Positions 25,771-35,045 of a stretch of DNA of 38,254 bases are shown here, piece after piece (positions within the stretch are counted from its first letter, which is position 1; every line of letters begins with the position of its first letter). This DNA is from Alphaproteobacteria bacterium (GTDB lineage Bacteria; Pseudomonadota; Alphaproteobacteria; Puniceispirillales; Puniceispirillaceae). The position numbers and the translations under genes were made by a program. Below the pieces are notes generated by a model, which was given only the letters and a program-made list of their open reading frames with translations, was not told where the DNA came from and made no database searches. The stretch lies in assembly GCA_016779005.1 (NCBI GenBank), contig JADHOL010000016.1, positions 1 to 38,254 of the forward strand, in the 5' to 3' direction.

Positions 25771-27882
25771 TTAGCTATCTGCTTCACCGGTTATGGTTGC
25801 AACGACTTCGATTTTCCTCGTTTCTGGTAATTCTGTGAATGCTAACACCACGATATCATCAATATGTTGGCGTATAATCTTGGAGAATTCCTTGCGTATT
25901 GCAGGCGAGACAACAATCACAGCCTGCCTTCCTTTTGCAGCAAGTGCATCATTAGTATCAGAAATTTTGCGAAGCAATTGCTGAGCAAGCGCATTATCAA
26001 TAACGAGCCCTTCTTCGCCGCTTTGACGCGCCATTGTGATCAACATATGCTCTAACTCAGACCCTAATGTGATCACTGGTAGGGGCTGATTTAGAGGGGC
26101 TACTTGTTGAATTAACAGACCTGCTAATTCAGGGCGAAGCATCTCTGCTGTATCAATAATACTCAAATTTCGTCCTGCAAGTGTTGCCAGATTTTCCAAT
26201 ATTCGCCTCAAATCGCTAATGGGAACGCGCTCTTCAAGTAACGCACGCAAAATCCCTGTTAGCTGGTGCAAAGGAACCAATTTAGGCACGACTGATTGAA
26301 CCAGATTAGGGGCTGTTTCAGATAAATTATCTAATAGCATCTGAATATCGTCCTGCCCGACAAGCTGGCCTGCATATTTATAGAGTATTTGGCTTAGATG
26401 CGTTGTCATGACAGAATCAGGGGCAATAATTACATAGCCTTTACTCTCCGCCTCTACCACATCATTTGGCATTATCCATACTGCATCCATTCCAAAAGTT
26501 GGATCCTTCACTTCAATGCCTTCTATTTTAATAGATGAATTCTCTCCTGGAATAGCGAGCTTTCTTTCAGGATAAACCTGATCCTCCCCTACAATTGTTT
26601 GCCCAATACGCAATCGATAGGTATTTGCCTCTAAGGTAAGATCATCTCTAATCCGAACAGCAGGAACAACAAACCCAAGGGATTTAGATACTTGTCTTCT
26701 TATTCCTGTTACTCTGTTAACGAGCGTGCCTCCATTTTCATCATTCACCATTTCAACAAGACCATAGCCAAGCTGAATAGATACAGGCGAGTTATCTGCA
26801 ATTTCGGATAATTCGATTTGCTCTGGTTTTGCTGTATCTCCTTCAAGACGCAGCTCACCGGCCTCGCCAGCAACGGCTTCTTGCTCGCTCGCCGCCTGCA
26901 TTTTTTTATTAACAAAGAACGCAACGCCGCCTGCTGCAAGACCCGCAATCAAAAACAGGGCATTTGGCATACCTGGCACAAATCCAAGAAGCAATAAAAC
27001 CCCAGCCACAGGATACCATGCGCGAGAAAGGCTTACCTGCTCGCCAATATGCTGAGCCATATCTTGTGTTGAGGAAACGCGCGTTACGATTATTGCGGTT
27101 GATATTGCCAGAAGCAGAGAGGGGATTTGTGCAACCAGACCATCGCCTACAGATAAAAGTACGTAATTCTGAGCTGCTACTTCAAAGCTAAGGGAATGTT
27201 GTGCAAGGCCAATAATCAGGCCACCCACAATGTTAATAATAAGAATAAGGATACCGGCAACAGCGTCTCCTTTAACAAATTTTGACGCGCCATCCATAGC
27301 ACCATAAAAATCTGCTTCACTGCTTATTTCTTTTCTGCGTAACGTTGCTTCTTCGTTTGAGAGCACACCTGCATTAAGGTCAGCATCAATAGCCATTTGT
27401 TTTCCAGGCATTGCATCTAGCGTAAATCTAGCTGTTACCTCAGATACTCTTCCTGCACCTTTGGTGATTACCAATAAGTTTATAATTACCAAAATCACAA
27501 ATACAAATATGCCAACGGCATAATTTCCAGCAATTACAAATTCGCCAAATGCCTTAATCACTTGCCCTGCCGCATCAGGACCCGTATGGCCTTCGCTTAA
27601 CACAATGCGTGTAGAAGCGACATTCAACGCCAAGCGCAAAACCGTTGCAATTAGCAGAAGGCTCGGAAAACTTGAGAAATCAAGAGGACGATAGGTTTGC
27701 AAAGAAACCATTAATATTACAAGTGAGATTAAAATATTGGAGACAAAAAAAGTATCTAGCAGAAAAACGGGAAGTGGCAGTACCATCATGGCTACTAGCA
27801 TTAAAATTCCGAGTGGCATTGTCGCAGAGGATAGTAGTCCTTTTAAATCTGACAGCCCCAAACGCCTTAGTGTCATTTCCAT
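25771..27882 (-). CDS. flhA: Flagellar export gate protein FlhA
   Basis: 703 residues, the core of the flagellar type III export gate in the inner membrane. About eight membrane segments fill the first 320 residues, with the FHIPEP signature region (RFTLDAMPGKQMAIDADLNAG) intact in the large loop; a cytosolic substrate-docking domain follows (about 355-700). The frame reaches an ATG at 27915, but GGAGAGG sits eight bases before the ATG at 27882, which gives the usual length. It heads the leftward flhA-flhF-flhG-fliA operon, and a near-perfect sigma-54 promoter lies upstream at 28063-28076. Confidence 0.96.
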   Translation of the reverse strand: MEMTLRRLGLSDLKGLLSSATMPLGILMLVAMMVLPLPVFLLDTFFVSNILISLVILMVSLQTYRPLDFSSFPSLLLIATVLRLALNVASTRIVLSEGHTGPDAAGQVIKAFGEFVIAGNYAVGIFVFVILVIINLLVITKGAGRVSEVTARFTLDAMPGKQMAIDADLNAGVLSNEEATLRRKEISSEADFYGAMDGASKFVKGDAVAGILILIINIVGGLIIGLAQHSLSFEVAAQNYVLLSVGDGLVAQIPSLLLAISTAIIVTRVSSTQDMAQHIGEQVSLSRAWYPVAGVLLLLGFVPGMPNALFLIAGLAAGGVAFFVNKKMQAASEQEAVAGEAGELRLEGDTAKPEQIELSEIADNSPVSIQLGYGLVEMVNDENGGTLVNRVTGIRRQVSKSLGFVVPAVRIRDDLTLEANTYRLRIGQTIVGEDQVYPERKLAIPGENSSIKIEGIEVKDPTFGMDAVWIMPNDVVEAESKGYVIIAPDSVMTTHLSQILYKYAGQLVGQDDIQMLLDNLSETAPNLVQSVVPKLVPLHQLTGILRALLEERVPISDLRRILENLATLAGRNLSIIDTAEMLRPELAGLLIQQVAPLNQPLPVITLGSELEHMLITMARQSGEEGLVIDNALAQQLLRKISDTNDALAAKGRQAVIVVSPAIRKEFSKIIRQHIDDIVVLAFTELPETRKIEVVATITGEADS

Positions 27883-28062
27883 GACATCATCCTCTCCATA
27901 AAAACTGCGTCGCATATCTGAGCTGAAATAGATCTATCAGAAACAGAAAAACTGAGGGATTTACTAGGTTTTTTATTTATCTGGCTCACTATTTGCACGT
28001 TACAGCTCACTTTAATTTAGTCTTATAATAGATAGCCTGAACATCAGACCTATGAGAAAAAG

Positions 28063-28076
28063 GCAAGAAGCGTGCC
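28063..28076 (-). promoter_or_regulatory. Sigma-54 promoter of the flhA operon
   Basis: On the minus strand TGGCACG, four bases CTTC, then TTGC: an essentially perfect match to the TGGCACG-N4-TTGC consensus, with GG and GC separated by ten bases. The predicted start is near 28051, giving a leader of about 170 bases to the preferred flhA start. Confidence 0.85.
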
Positions 28077-28130
28077 ATATCTAGCAATCAAAGGGATAAT
28101 TTTAGCTTTTATGGAAGGTTAGGGATGGCT

Positions 28131-28192: not shown

Positions 28193-28720
28193 ATGAAATA
28201 TTCGTTTTCTTTTATCGTGCCAATAGCAGCAACTCTTGCATTGACGAGCTGCGGGCATGTTATGACAAGTGGGACAGATACGCGCTCATCTATGATTACT
28301 CCTGCTGAATTGGCAGCAAGCAATCAGGACACGCCAACATCTTCCCTTAATTCTGTGCGCGAAATTTTTGACGCTAACTCAGAAAATATCCCAACCTTGA
28401 CTGCCGTTGGATATGCCGTTGTATCCTCTCAGCCAGGACAATCAGATGCGCAACGCCGGTTAATGGCAATACGGTCCGCACGAATGGCAGCAATGCGCGA
28501 TCTAGCTGAACAAATACACGGATTACAAGTAGATAGTTCTACAACCGTAATAGATTTAATGGTTCAGAATGATACCTTCCGCGGCATTGTGTCTGGCACA
28601 ATCAGAGGCGCACGCACTGTTCGCATTAATCCAACTGGATCTGATACGTATGAAATTGTTTTAGAAATAGACCGCGAAATGATTAATTACCTAATCGATA
28701 CAGGTCGCAGAGTGGCCTAA
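28193..28720 (+). CDS. flgP: FlgP-like outer-membrane lipoprotein (LPP20 family)
   Basis: 175 residues with a lipoprotein signal ending in the lipobox L-T-S-C20. The C-terminal domain (about 65-175) matches the LPP20 family: a GYAVVSSQPGQS strand, then RRLMAIRSARMAAMRDLAEQ helix, then a strand-rich end EIVLEIDREMINYLI. FlgP homologues in Vibrio and Campylobacter sit at the outer membrane around the flagellar L-ring or basal disk and are needed for polar flagellar rotation. It is the first gene of a seven-gene flagellar operon behind a sigma-54 promoter. Confidence 0.85.
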   Translation: MKYSFSFIVPIAATLALTSCGHVMTSGTDTRSSMITPAELAASNQDTPTSSLNSVREIFDANSENIPTLTAVGYAVVSSQPGQSDAQRRLMAIRSARMAAMRDLAEQIHGLQVDSSTTVIDLMVQNDTFRGIVSGTIRGARTVRINPTGSDTYEIVLEIDREMINYLIDTGRRVA

Positions 28721-32377: not shown

Positions 32378-32722
32378 TTACATTTTAAACTTATCCACCA
32401 CGCAACTTACTTTTTCATAAGTATTTCCAATGAAGATTTTGGTAGAGCCTGTTTGCCTATTCGTAATAAGGCGAAGCCCCTCAGATTCTATTATTATCTC
32501 ATCTTGCGTAAGCAATGTAATTTCAGCTTGAACGAGTTTAGAGGCGAATTGTATATTGGCCGTAGCGCCTTGCTTTAATTTTCCAACCGATATTTCGTAA
32601 AGAGCGGTTTGTCTTGGCTGACAGAAATAATTCTCATAGCTAAACCTGTTTAAATCATCACATGCGGTAGCAACAAACACCAGACCTATTAAGCAGAAAA
32701 GGGATACTCCAGATAATTTCAT
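32378..32722 (-). CDS. Putative small lipoprotein, unknown
   Basis: 114 residues with a hydrophobic signal (about 5-19) ending in VATAC21, an acceptable lipobox. The mature part is short and beta-rich (TANIQFASKLVQAEITLLT, then DEIIIESEGLRLITNRQTG), with two further cysteines (YFCQPR, SCVVDK) that could form a disulfide. I do not recognise a family. It lies between two flagellar blocks in the opposite direction; GGA in AAAAAGGAATAATT just before the ATG is a fair ribosome site. Role unknown. Confidence 0.65.
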   Translation of the reverse strand: MKLSGVSLFCLIGLVFVATACDDLNRFSYENYFCQPRQTALYEISVGKLKQGATANIQFASKLVQAEITLLTQDEIIIESEGLRLITNRQTGSTKIFIGNTYEKVSCVVDKFKM

Positions 32723-32817: not shown

Positions 32818-33414
32818 TTATTCTTCATCCTCTGTTTGTTTAGAAGATGCATCAGAAACATCCTCTAATTCTTCATCTTCCATTTGTTCAGAAGATGTAT
32901 CAGAACCATCCTCTAATTCTTCATCGATTTCTGGTTCTGACACTTCTACGGTTTCTGCTTTTCCGGCTTCGATAAGTATTTCGGCTTCCTCATGGTGAAC
33001 ATCCACAATTACGCCTTTTGGAAAACGCACTCCTTTGACAATACTATTTTCAGTAATCCGTAATCGCACCCAGTCTGTGTCATTTTCCTCATCATCCTCA
33101 AAAAGGTTATCCTCACTAGGGTTATCTGGCAAATCCTGTTCAGGGGCCATAAATTTAGATACTAATGAGGCATCCTCTTTTTCTTGTATATCAATTATGC
33201 GCTGTCTTAACACGTACACGCGTGCTGCTAAGATACCAAGCCGTTTTTGCTCATCTTGTTCTTTATCGAGTAGCTGCTTTAAAAAGTCGATTGTTTCAGA
33301 GAATGTTTTTCCATCACAGGCTTCAATTAATTTTGCACGAATAGCGACCACTTCTGGCGAAAGTAAAATCGAACTTCCAGCACCCGCACGGTTATCATCA
33401 AAAGAGAATTCCAT
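32818..33414 (-). CDS. Acidic protein with C-terminal repeat, under a bidirectional sigma-54 promoter with flgB
   Basis: 198 residues, no signal peptide, not recognised. Residues 1-75 are helical (SPEVVAIRAKLIEACDGKTF, then ETIDFLKQLLDKEQDEQKRL) and might bind a partner; residues 115-160 form a small beta domain (DWVRLRITENSIVKGVRFPK then GVIVDVHHEEAEILIEAGKA). The C-terminus is two 16-residue repeats beginning DEELED, strongly acidic. GAGG about seven bases before the ATG supports the start. A sigma-54 site at 33451-33464 on the minus strand gives a leader of about 25 bases. Co-regulation with flgB suggests a flagellar assembly or control role; that is inference. Confidence 0.75.
   Translation of the reverse strand: MEFSFDDNRAGAGSSILLSPEVVAIRAKLIEACDGKTFSETIDFLKQLLDKEQDEQKRLGILAARVYVLRQRIIDIQEKEDASLVSKFMAPEQDLPDNPSEDNLFEDDEENDTDWVRLRITENSIVKGVRFPKGVIVDVHHEEAEILIEAGKAETVEVSEPEIDEELEDGSDTSSEQMEDEELEDVSDASSKQTEDEE
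32830..32925 (-). repeat. Two tandem 48-base in-frame repeats in the acidic-protein gene
   Basis: Two units, 32878-32925 and 32830-32877, differ at only a few bases and encode DEELEDGSDTSSEQME and DEELEDVSDASSKQTE. A partial third unit (DEE) precedes the stop codon. This is a recent in-frame duplication of an acidic tail. Confidence 0.9.
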
Positions 33415-33438
33415 TTTTTAACCTCACTATTTAATTTT

Positions 33439-33452
33439 GGCATCTTACTTGC
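33439..33452 (+). promoter_or_regulatory. Sigma-54 promoter of flgBCDE
   Basis: TTGGCAT, five bases CTTAC, then TTGCAA. GG at 33439-33440 and GC at 33451-33452 are separated by exactly ten bases. The predicted start is near 33464, about 65 bases before the flgB ATG. Confidence 0.8.
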
Positions 33453-33464
33453 AATTTCTACACC
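33451..33464 (-). promoter_or_regulatory. Opposed sigma-54 promoter of the acidic-protein gene, sharing the -12 box
   Basis: On the minus strand TTGGTGT, five bases AGAAA, then TTGCAA: GG (33464-33463), ten bases, GC (33452-33451). The -12 GC is the same base pair step used by the flgB promoter because TTGCAA is palindromic. The predicted start near 33439 coincides with the -24 GG of the flgB promoter, and the reverse is also true. The -24 side (GGTGT) is a weaker match than GGCAC. Confidence 0.6.
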
Positions 33465-33528
33465 AAATCACGGGATATTTCTTTTTATTTATACCGTTAT
33501 TGAGTTGAATTTACGAGGTCCAAATGAA

Positions 33529-33915
33529 ATGAAAAGCATAGGCGATCATCTGAATTTTCATGCATCTGCACTGCAATTGCGGTCTCGCAGAAATGATATT
33601 CTTGCATCTAATATTGCAAATGCAGCTACTCCTAACTTTAAGGCGCGTGACTTGAATTATGACCATCAAATTCGCCAAGTCGGCGGAACAGGCCCTCTTA
33701 AAGCTACTGATAGTAAGCATTTTAATGTAGCGGTTAAGAACCCACATCAAACACTTTTCTACAGGCAGCCAATCAACCCGTCATTAGATGGAAATACCGT
33801 AGAGTTGAGTGTTGAACAGCTTGAATTTTCTGAAAATTCATTAAGGTACCAAACATCTCTTGAATTCTTAAATAACAGGATAGCAGGCCTTATGTCCGCT
33901 ATTAGGGGTGAATAA
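33529..33915 (+). CDS. flgB: Flagellar proximal rod protein FlgB
   Basis: 128 residues. The N-terminal axial motif (RSRRNDILASNIANAATPNFKA, residues about 20-41, read here as RRNDILASNIANAATPNFKA) and the C-terminal helix (NSLRYQTSLEFLNNRIAGLM) are those of FlgB, the rod protein nearest the MS-ring. The frame extends to a TTG at 33505, but the ATG at 33529 matches family length and has GAGG at 33515-33518. The stop overlaps the flgC start by one base. fliE, often found next to flgBC, is not here. Confidence 0.93.
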   Translation: MKSIGDHLNFHASALQLRSRRNDILASNIANAATPNFKARDLNYDHQIRQVGGTGPLKATDSKHFNVAVKNPHQTLFYRQPINPSLDGNTVELSVEQLEFSENSLRYQTSLEFLNNRIAGLMSAIRGE

Positions 33916-34331
33916 TGGCAGATATTAACAACGTATTCGATATCTCTGGCAGAGCAATGGCAGCACAATTAGTGCGTCTTAATACGATTGCCAGTAACCT
34001 TGCAAACGCCGGAAATCTTGCCTCTTCCGAGGATGAGGCATATCGCTCGCTAAAACCTGTGTTTGAGACTAAATATGCGGATGAAGTTAGGAAAAACGGG
34101 ATCGCAACTGCACAAGCTGTAGATATCGTTGAAACTAATCGCCTTCCTGAAAAACTATATCTGCCAGACCATCCAAGTGCTGATGATAACGGGTTTGTAT
34201 ATAGCGCAGCCGTAAACATTGAAGAAGAATATGTCGAGATGATGGAGGCCAGTCGCCAATATCAAAATAATGTAGAAGTCATCACTACCCTAAGAACACT
34301 AATGATGCGCACCATAAGTATGGGCAAATAA
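33915..34331 (+). CDS. flgC: Flagellar proximal rod protein FlgC
   Basis: 138 residues, normal FlgC length. The N-terminal ISGRAMAAQLVRLNTIASNL followed by ANAG is the axial-protein motif, with SSEDEAYRSLKPVFE after it, and the C-terminal EEEYVEMMEASRQYQNNVEV then ITTLRTLMMRTISMGK is the helix that packs into the rod. Start and flgB stop overlap (TAATG), so the two rod proteins are translationally coupled and made in step. Confidence 0.94.
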   Translation: MADINNVFDISGRAMAAQLVRLNTIASNLANAGNLASSEDEAYRSLKPVFETKYADEVRKNGIATAQAVDIVETNRLPEKLYLPDHPSADDNGFVYSAAVNIEEEYVEMMEASRQYQNNVEVITTLRTLMMRTISMGK

Positions 34332-34349: not shown

Positions 34350-35045
34350 ATGAGCAGCATAGACTCAAATAGCCAGACACATTTAAACACAATTCTTGAT
34401 AAAATTGGTGTAAAGAGTGAGGAATCCAAAAAACCTGCATCAAAGGATAATTTGGGTCAGGAGGACTTCCTGAAACTAATGACAACTCAACTACAAAATC
34501 AGGACCCATTCGCTCCTATGGAGAATGCTGAGTTTATTGGCCAGATGGCGCAGTTTTCGACTGTTACCGGAATTGCAGAAATGGGTGAAGCACTCAAATC
34601 AATTAGTTCCCAGTTAAATGAGTTCCGCATTGCCACAGCTTCAAACATGCTTGGTAGCTCTGTAATGATACCTGGGAATTATGCACGAATTGACTCTGAA
34701 CAGACAATTCATGGAATGGTTGACCTACCAAAGGCCTCTGCCCAAACAGAAATTCGATTTACGGATGCAACCGGTACTATTTTACATAGTAAACAGCTAG
34801 GCGCGCAAGCATCAGGTCTCGTAGGTTTTAGCTGGGAAGATATCCCATCTGACATTGTGGACAAGAATGAGACGATACGAATTGAAGCATTTGCTGATTT
34901 TGGAAATGGTGTGGAAAGCCTTACTCCATCTGTATTTGCAGAGGTTCTTGCTGCTTCCACCGGTGATAAAACTAAAGGTGTGGTTTTAGATGTTCGTGAT
35001 TATGGCGAGATTCTTGCATCAGACGTTCAGAAGTTCAGACGCTAA
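34350..35045 (+). CDS. flgD: Hook-cap/hook assembly protein FlgD
   Basis: 231 residues. The N-terminal FlgD signature is clear (LGQEDFLKLMTTQLQNQDPF at about 36-55, then APMENAEFIGQMAQFST), followed by a beta-rich body with FlgD Tudor and Ig-like character (IRFTDATGTILHSKQLG, GLVGFSWEDI). FlgD caps the growing hook and guides FlgE polymerisation. It follows flgC by 18 bases with CGGAG upstream of the ATG, and precedes flgE by 46 bases. Confidence 0.94.
   Translation: MSSIDSNSQTHLNTILDKIGVKSEESKKPASKDNLGQEDFLKLMTTQLQNQDPFAPMENAEFIGQMAQFSTVTGIAEMGEALKSISSQLNEFRIATASNMLGSSVMIPGNYARIDSEQTIHGMVDLPKASAQTEIRFTDATGTILHSKQLGAQASGLVGFSWEDIPSDIVDKNETIRIEAFADFGNGVESLTPSVFAEVLAASTGDKTKGVVLDVRDYGEILASDVQKFRR

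Follow-up and report, generated by a model that had tools for sequence, protein, structure and literature searches.

Promoters for sigma-70 in which divergent transcripts share one -10 element are known from the work of Warman, Grainger and colleagues, and according to the available part of their paper, the two directions of such promoters in E. coli compete only when one of them is strongly active, noise then also being lower (PMC12825309). For sigma-54, the available descriptions of zraSR/zraP (PMC4987338) and of the Azotobacter VnfA1 targets (PMC9542535) are of divergent, separate promoters under one activator; in Salmonella, 20 RpoN sites were counted as bidirectional, these being divergent regions in the available text (PMC10794520). 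The 'bidirectional promoter region' of hrpL/hrpJ is one in which hrpJ is read from an HrpL hrp-box, as described in the accessible part of PMC5263251. Among flagellar systems, divergent promoters of fla2 in Rhodobacter sphaeroides share a CtrA site, the flgB promoter being one of the cases (PMC6180460, available part), and in Fla1 of the same species RpoN2 acts with FleQ and FleT, sigma-54 driving the basal body and hook genes (PMC7277832, available part).

Here, we describe a 28-base site between flgB and a divergent gene in the window, i.e. the whole stretch of 38,254 nucleotides that was analysed. The site is kept by many marine alphaproteobacteria in a form that can be read both ways, and judging from its sequence, RNA polymerase probably has to choose a side.

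Genomes and sequences compared

The window corresponds to contig C37 of a genome of 1.97 Mb that is about 92% complete. Within its order (SAR116), 80 flgB matches were obtained in 78 genomes, and 76 upstream regions (75 fetched, plus that of the window) were used; G036:C44, G039, G086, and G098 were left out as fragments or contig ends. Family labels are f1 (n = 33 sequences), f2 (n = 7), f3 (n = 2), and f4 (n = 34); for f1-f3, the only selection criteria were homology of flgB and the site on the plus strand. On the flgB protein tree, changes in the site and in 59 flank columns were counted over 38 taxa selected without regard to the minus-strand site and, separately, over eight f4 taxa; 4 of the 58 labelled loci (L050, L052, L060, and L071, all f2) are absent from the tree, so that f2 is represented by one taxon.

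For the class, 387 alphaproteobacterial genomes, each at least 90% complete, were surveyed. Eight of the class matches (in f11, f19, and f64) came from the pattern search itself and do not enter the count of 42 sequences or the rate test given below. Twenty loci were fetched by flgB similarity alone, several of them being the same contigs as in the surveyed genomes. The GC of a sigma-54 -12 element is by convention placed at positions -13/-12, and predicted transcription starts were derived by setting GC in this way.

The site between flgB and the divergent gene

Direct reading of the window gives TGG-N8-TTGCAA-N8-CCA at 33438-33465, 28 bases that read TGGCATCTTACTTGCAATTTCTACACCA. GG lies at 33439-33440, TTGCAA at 33449-33454, and CC, which is GG on the minus strand, at 33463-33464; these positions and the symmetry about 33451/33452 are exactly those of the original prediction. 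In the flgB direction, the site reads TGGCATCTTACTTGCA, with GG and GC ten bases apart and one mismatch to TGGCACN5TTGCA; in the divergent direction, it reads TGGTGTAGAAATTGCA, with the same ten-base spacing of GG and GC, now on the minus strand, and three mismatches to the same pattern. The -24 element of the flgB promoter is thus read as TGGCAT (33438-33443, plus strand), the candidate -24 element of the divergent promoter as TGGTGT (33460-33465, minus strand), and the palindrome TTGCAA (33449-33454) as a -12 element shared by both strands. From the spacing to the -12 element, transcription is predicted to start at 33464 towards flgB (plus strand) and at 33439 towards the divergent gene (minus strand). 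Both predicted starts fall on the opposite GG, in agreement with the earlier claim that the -24 box of each promoter coincides with the start of the other. The minus-strand GG-N10-GC of this site is the sole one listed within 33415-33700, and a search of 33300-33600 gave no sigma-70-like promoter.

The window contains a single TGG-N8-TTGCAA-N8-CCA, where 0.01 would be expected, and of 100 shuffled versions, 1 contained the pattern. By chance, the bare skeleton GG-N10-GC-N10-CC is common (3.83 expected vs 2 found in the window), the looser one-strand sigma-54 pattern shows no real excess (135 in the window vs 123.59 in shuffles), and the symmetric pattern occurs at three further places in the window's own genome, so that a single genome would not prove the site. 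It is taken as real because it is kept in 42 of 42 f1-f3 sequences, which were chosen without regard to the minus-strand box.

Two other sigma-54-like sites, with one mismatch each, are present at 27982-27997 (plus strand; TGGCTCACTATTTGCA) and 28062-28077 (minus strand; TGGCACGCTTCTTGCC), between the divergent flhA (25771-27915, minus strand) and an ORF at 28193 (plus strand). These two face each other, so that their transcripts would overlap.

Conservation within the order

TGGCA-N6-TTGCA is found in 76/76 flgB upstream regions of the order. In f1-f3, both -24 boxes, TTGCAA, and CCA are present in 42/42 sequences, with zero length change across the 28 bases; 15 of the 90 aligned columns are invariant, all of them within the -12 element and the two -24 boxes, counting the T that precedes the left box. 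The left -24 element is TGGCAT or TGGCAC in 50/50 sequences; the right one is TGGTGT in 28/50 and TGGCA in none of the 50, matching poorly beyond TGG. Both GG positions and TTGCAA are conserved jointly, as the original prediction had proposed to check among relatives, in the window and in all seven genomes of its genus that have flgB.

Family f4 retains the -24 and -12 elements of flgB in 34/34 regions and has CCA in 0/34; its sixth -12 base drifts (20 A, giving TTGCAA; 12 G, giving TTGCAG; 2 C, giving TTGCAC), and a minus-strand GG-N10-GC is found nearby in just 1 of the 34 regions. Since the flgB promoter is retained there without the minus-strand -24 element, that element is not needed for flgB transcription; with CCA absent and the palindrome kept in only 20/34, the right box and the palindrome appear to go together with something else, namely the divergent gene.

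On the flgB tree, the three minus-strand TGG columns show 0, 0, and 0 changes over the 38 taxa, vs a flank mean of 11.1 and a flank minimum of 2; in f4 (eight taxa), the right TGG columns change 2, 5, and 2 times vs a flank mean of 2.4. As a control, 119 rows of TGGCA-N6-TTGCAA-N10-W were collected from 32 family genomes, and CCA was present in 21/21 at flgB vs 5/98 elsewhere (counted by hand), many of these 98 rows being sites that need not be promoters.

Spread across the class and beyond

TTGGCA-N6-TTGCAA-N8-CCA occurs in 13 of the 387 class genomes, and the reversed control pattern gave one match. All 13 matches stand at the locus of flgB and the divergent gene (five in SAR116, five in f11, two in f19, and one in f64). 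With a profile built from 16 members of the divergent protein's family, 14 of the 387 genomes are found, namely the same 13 and G223, which has flgB with TGGCATGTAAATTGCAG and has no right-hand TGG. Loss of the minus-strand GG where both genes are kept, which was to count against the original prediction if seen in close relatives, is found in none of those; it is found in the more distant f4 and in G223, which hold both genes, so that the arrangement is not indispensable.

Among the 20 loci fetched by flgB similarity, 18 have the symmetric site. It is present in 6/6 of L072-L077 (AG-453-O22, Nereida ignava, two contigs of MAG casp40, LSUCC0031, and Marinibacterium sp.), and the divergent gene in each belongs to the same family; it is listed as an ORF in five of the six, and the frame in L074 opens with TTG. 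No such site was found within the stretch of L080 (Desulfobulbus) that was examined. In a Rhodobacteraceae MAG (L078, 4926-4953), CCA is kept and the -12 element is TTGCAC; the divergent ORF there (315 aa) looks different by eye, and this is possibly an intermediate or decayed form of the site.

Eight pattern matches were obtained in 396 genomes of the phylum, one of them being the window. For the seven others, inspection of the listed ORFs by eye revealed no flgB; four of these matches are covered by an ORF of at least 90 aa, and three (L236, L237, and L241) lie between oppositely directed ORFs. The match in L237 (1501-1529, motif on the plus strand; TTGGCACGGTGATTGCAACAGCAAGTCCA) lies between ORFs that resemble urease gamma (minus strand) and a substrate-binding protein (plus strand); in this one genome of another class, it is a possible independent symmetric site.

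The flgB operon and the divergent gene

The gene flgB encodes a rod protein (33505-33915, plus strand; Pfam Flg_bb_rod, E 4.5e-9). It is listed from a TTG; the likely start is the ATG at 33529, after GAGG at 33515-33518, and homology to most relatives starts near residue 8-9. Next in the operon are a flgC-like rod gene (33915-34331, plus strand; Pfam Flg_bbr_C, Flg_bb_rod) and flgD, for hook capping (34350-35045, plus strand; Pfam FlgD, E 1.3e-23).

The divergent gene (32818-33414, minus strand) is an ORF of 198 aa with GAGG at 33425-33422 before its ATG. It is followed by a gene for a small protein of 114 aa (32378-32722, minus strand) with a signal-like N terminus by eye, for which no protein family was found and which is possibly co-transcribed with the divergent gene; by eye, L072, L073, L204, and L205 have small ORFs like it downstream of their divergent gene. 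In the window, the divergent protein has a helical N-terminal part, a small beta domain, and an acidic tail; W, RF, and A/L positions of the beta domain are conserved from SAR116 to Rhodobacterales, and the charged tail is variable. Its earlier description as an acidic protein holds for the window and does not extend to all members, the tail being lysine-rich in Nereida and other Rhodobacterales. No Pfam or NCBIfam family was found for it above cut-off; the beta domain gives weak DUF7210/DUF7302-like matches below cut-off. In the structure model (mean pLDDT 69.2, pTM 0.37), the helices are confident and the beta domain is moderately confident; a Foldseek search against the PDB returned nothing at E <= 0.001, the best rows being GINS-like with TM about 0.2.

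The divergent gene is present in 38 of 61 relatives and lies beside and divergent to flgB in 38/38 (coordinates compared by eye), and flgB is present in 39 of the 61, the extra one being G039, in which flgB lies only 60 bases from the contig end. This constant tie to flgB marks the divergent gene as flagellar. At 19 loci that have the symmetric site, the start codon of this gene and the site centre are 28-48 nt apart, taking the nearest ATG (TTG in two loci). In f4, the corresponding distance is 75-121 nt in genera g14 and g17 and about 45 nt in g18 and g19; the latter value falls among those of the symmetric taxa, so that use of the site cannot be read off the distance alone. Family f4 has probably moved the divergent gene to another promoter. 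A possible replacement promoter for this gene is a block like CGACAATATAAAAAAAACTAAAG, found repeatedly in g14 some 30-60 bases ahead of the flgB -24 element (e.g. L135, L144), where it separates the site from the displaced gene.

Downstream of the divergent gene and on its strand, L075 has a rod gene of the flgE/F/G family (Pfam), and L074, L076, and L077 have flgF-like ORFs (by eye). The minus arm may therefore carry rod genes in these loci.

Sigma-54 machinery

RpoN is encoded in the window's genome, with one Sigma54_DBD match (E 2.8e-61). PF00158 is found at six places, one of which has a GxFTGx (GAFTGA-type) motif, GSFTGA; the genome being about 92% complete, these are the places present in the assembly, and the frame of the GSFTGA activator begins at a contig end, its N-terminus missing. 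The gene lies ahead of fliF (Pfam YscJ_FliF) on the same strand. The assumption of one activator made in the original prediction is thus in keeping with a single sigma-54 activator genome-wide with a recognisable GAFTGA-type loop, and with just one such activator, it is very likely that one protein serves both arms. Two loci of the same genome (L189 and L190, contig C38) encode response-regulator activators that are NtrX/NtrC-like by reading and have no GAFTGA loop; sigma-54 in this genome may for that reason serve flagella only.

Discussion

The explanation that we favour, with good though not full confidence, is that 33438-33465 would be a bidirectional -24/-12 promoter with a shared -12 element, taken by one polymerase at a time and biased towards flgB. 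The core of the original prediction, a sigma-54 promoter in which one palindromic -12 element serves both strands and a -24 element stands on each side, is supported by the comparison of genomes. As TTGCAA would be a -12 element on either strand, sigma-54 polymerase could bind in either orientation; the strong left -24 element (TGGCAT) would send it to flgB, and the weaker, conserved right one (TGGTGT) to the divergent gene, transcription of both arms being presumably sigma-54-dependent. The two sites overlap completely, so that one sigma-54 holoenzyme should be on the DNA at once, and steric exclusion appears hard to avoid given this overlap. A common enhancer-binding activator, most likely the one beside fliF, would fire whichever orientation is loaded. 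Both operons would then be on simultaneously, in an unequal ratio for which the two -24 boxes would be mainly responsible; flgB should come out ahead in most cases, since its -24 element is the better one and the right one is never TGGCA.

The original prediction had allowed for mutually exclusive or randomly alternating expression under the one activator. A fixed bias looks more plausible than an even switch, since the two genes co-occur in relatives and TGGCA is not found on the right; random alternation between cells is a possible, predicted option that is at present unsupported. Sigma-54 polymerase binds a promoter before it can open it, and its closed complexes are stable and long-lived before activation. 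Stronger competition would thus be expected than at sigma-70 promoters, and a two-orientation promoter would be a clean test of orientation choice and mutual exclusion. A more speculative reading, less likely than not, would be an orientation switch in which silent polymerase is pre-loaded one way and this pre-loading, not the activator, decides the split event by event. If this is true, the switch would be a sigma-54-specific kind of promoter choice, kept in several alphaproteobacterial lineages.

Other readings of the right-hand box were weighed. CCA might not be a second -24 element, but belong to the flgB promoter or to the site of another regulator at the flgB start: CC stands exactly at the predicted +1 of flgB, where a regulator site could be conserved too, and beyond TGG the box follows the sigma-54 consensus poorly. 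We consider this unlikely, as f4 keeps the flgB promoter throughout but never CCA, its CCA columns changing about as the flanks do, as the sixth -12 base, dispensable for the flgB promoter in f4, is invariant in 42/42 f1-f3 sequences together with CCA, and as the symmetric pattern tracks the divergent gene through several families. That the symmetry arose by chance and was passed on by common descent is barely credible, even though TTGCAA is self-complementary, so that a sigma-54 promoter with such a -12 element needs just one opposite-strand TGG, and CCA also follows in 5 of the 98 control rows away from flgB; the TGG columns stayed unchanged on the same tree on which the flanks change 11.1 times on average, and 13/13 class-wide matches are at one locus. 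Chance symmetry was set aside after the shuffles, the control sites, and the change counts on the flgB tree.

Two further readings accept that the site can be bound both ways. In one, the promoter is bidirectional and the sharing is a compact means of driving two operons, without regulatory meaning and with negligible competition. This has a real, if lesser, chance of being correct: in the available text of PMC12825309, basal transcription at five bidirectional sigma-70 promoters in E. coli did not suffice to cause competition, and the small genomes of the present group may favour compact intergenic regions. It leaves aside the exact symmetry and the lack of any indel in the 28 bases over 42 sequences, where two close separate promoters would suffice; the longevity of sigma-54 closed complexes should moreover strengthen competition, both points being arguments and not tests. 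In the other, the minus orientation is a decoy, at which reverse-parked sigma-54 polymerase lowers flgB output and the transcript is incidental. The reverse -24 element is indeed consistently weaker than the forward one; but the site tracks a conserved divergent gene with its start codon within the 28-48 nt given above in 19 loci, the divergent ATG is preceded by GAGG in the window and by a similar purine-rich sequence in many of the other loci, and we regard a decoy as very improbable.

It is the deep conservation, and not a single sequence, which suggests that a bidirectional core promoter can be selectively held in a flagellar regulon. The divergent gene, found alongside flgB in the genomes studied, may code for a so far undescribed part of the flagellum or for a factor in its assembly.

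Comparison with known systems

A -12 element shared between divergent sigma-54 promoters was not found in searches of an open-access library, and a precedent elsewhere, as in subscription journals, is possible. This sigma-54 equivalent of a shared -10 element appears to be new, its absence from those searches being weak evidence. Like zraSR/zraP (PMC4987338) and the VnfA1 targets (PMC9542535), the present locus has two outward sigma-54 promoters (predicted here) and one enhancer-binding protein; unlike here, the available descriptions of those systems contain no shared core element. The hrpL/hrpJ region, as described in the available part of PMC5263251, differs in not consisting of two sigma-54 promoters.

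The fla2 system of R. sphaeroides resembles this locus in that divergent flagellar operons of an alphaproteobacterium are coupled via common DNA; what is shared there, according to the accessible part of PMC6180460, is an activator site and not a sigma-factor core element, and the system is not a sigma-54 one. In Fla1 of the same species, fleT lies within the fliEFGHIJ operon, and the activator found here is likewise near fliF; the available description of Fla1 (PMC7277832) has no shared -12 element and no divergent partner of flgB, unlike here.

The closest likeness is to the sigma-70 promoters of PMC12825309, as far as its available text describes them: a pseudo-symmetric core element is common to two divergent starts, which are predicted ones here, and polymerase can occupy only one of two orientations at once, as it would here. 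The present site differs in that sigma-54 would be used, the shared element is a -12 and not a -10, transcription should depend on an activator, and the predicted starts are 25 bases apart; the main text of that paper contains none of the words sigma54, rpoN, and sigma factor. By the definition given in its available part, with divergent starts that flank one core element or lie inside it, the element is present and conserved here and the starts are predicted. With TTGCAA as the common -12 element and no sigma-70-like site, the promoter would work like this class, as described there, without being filed in it.
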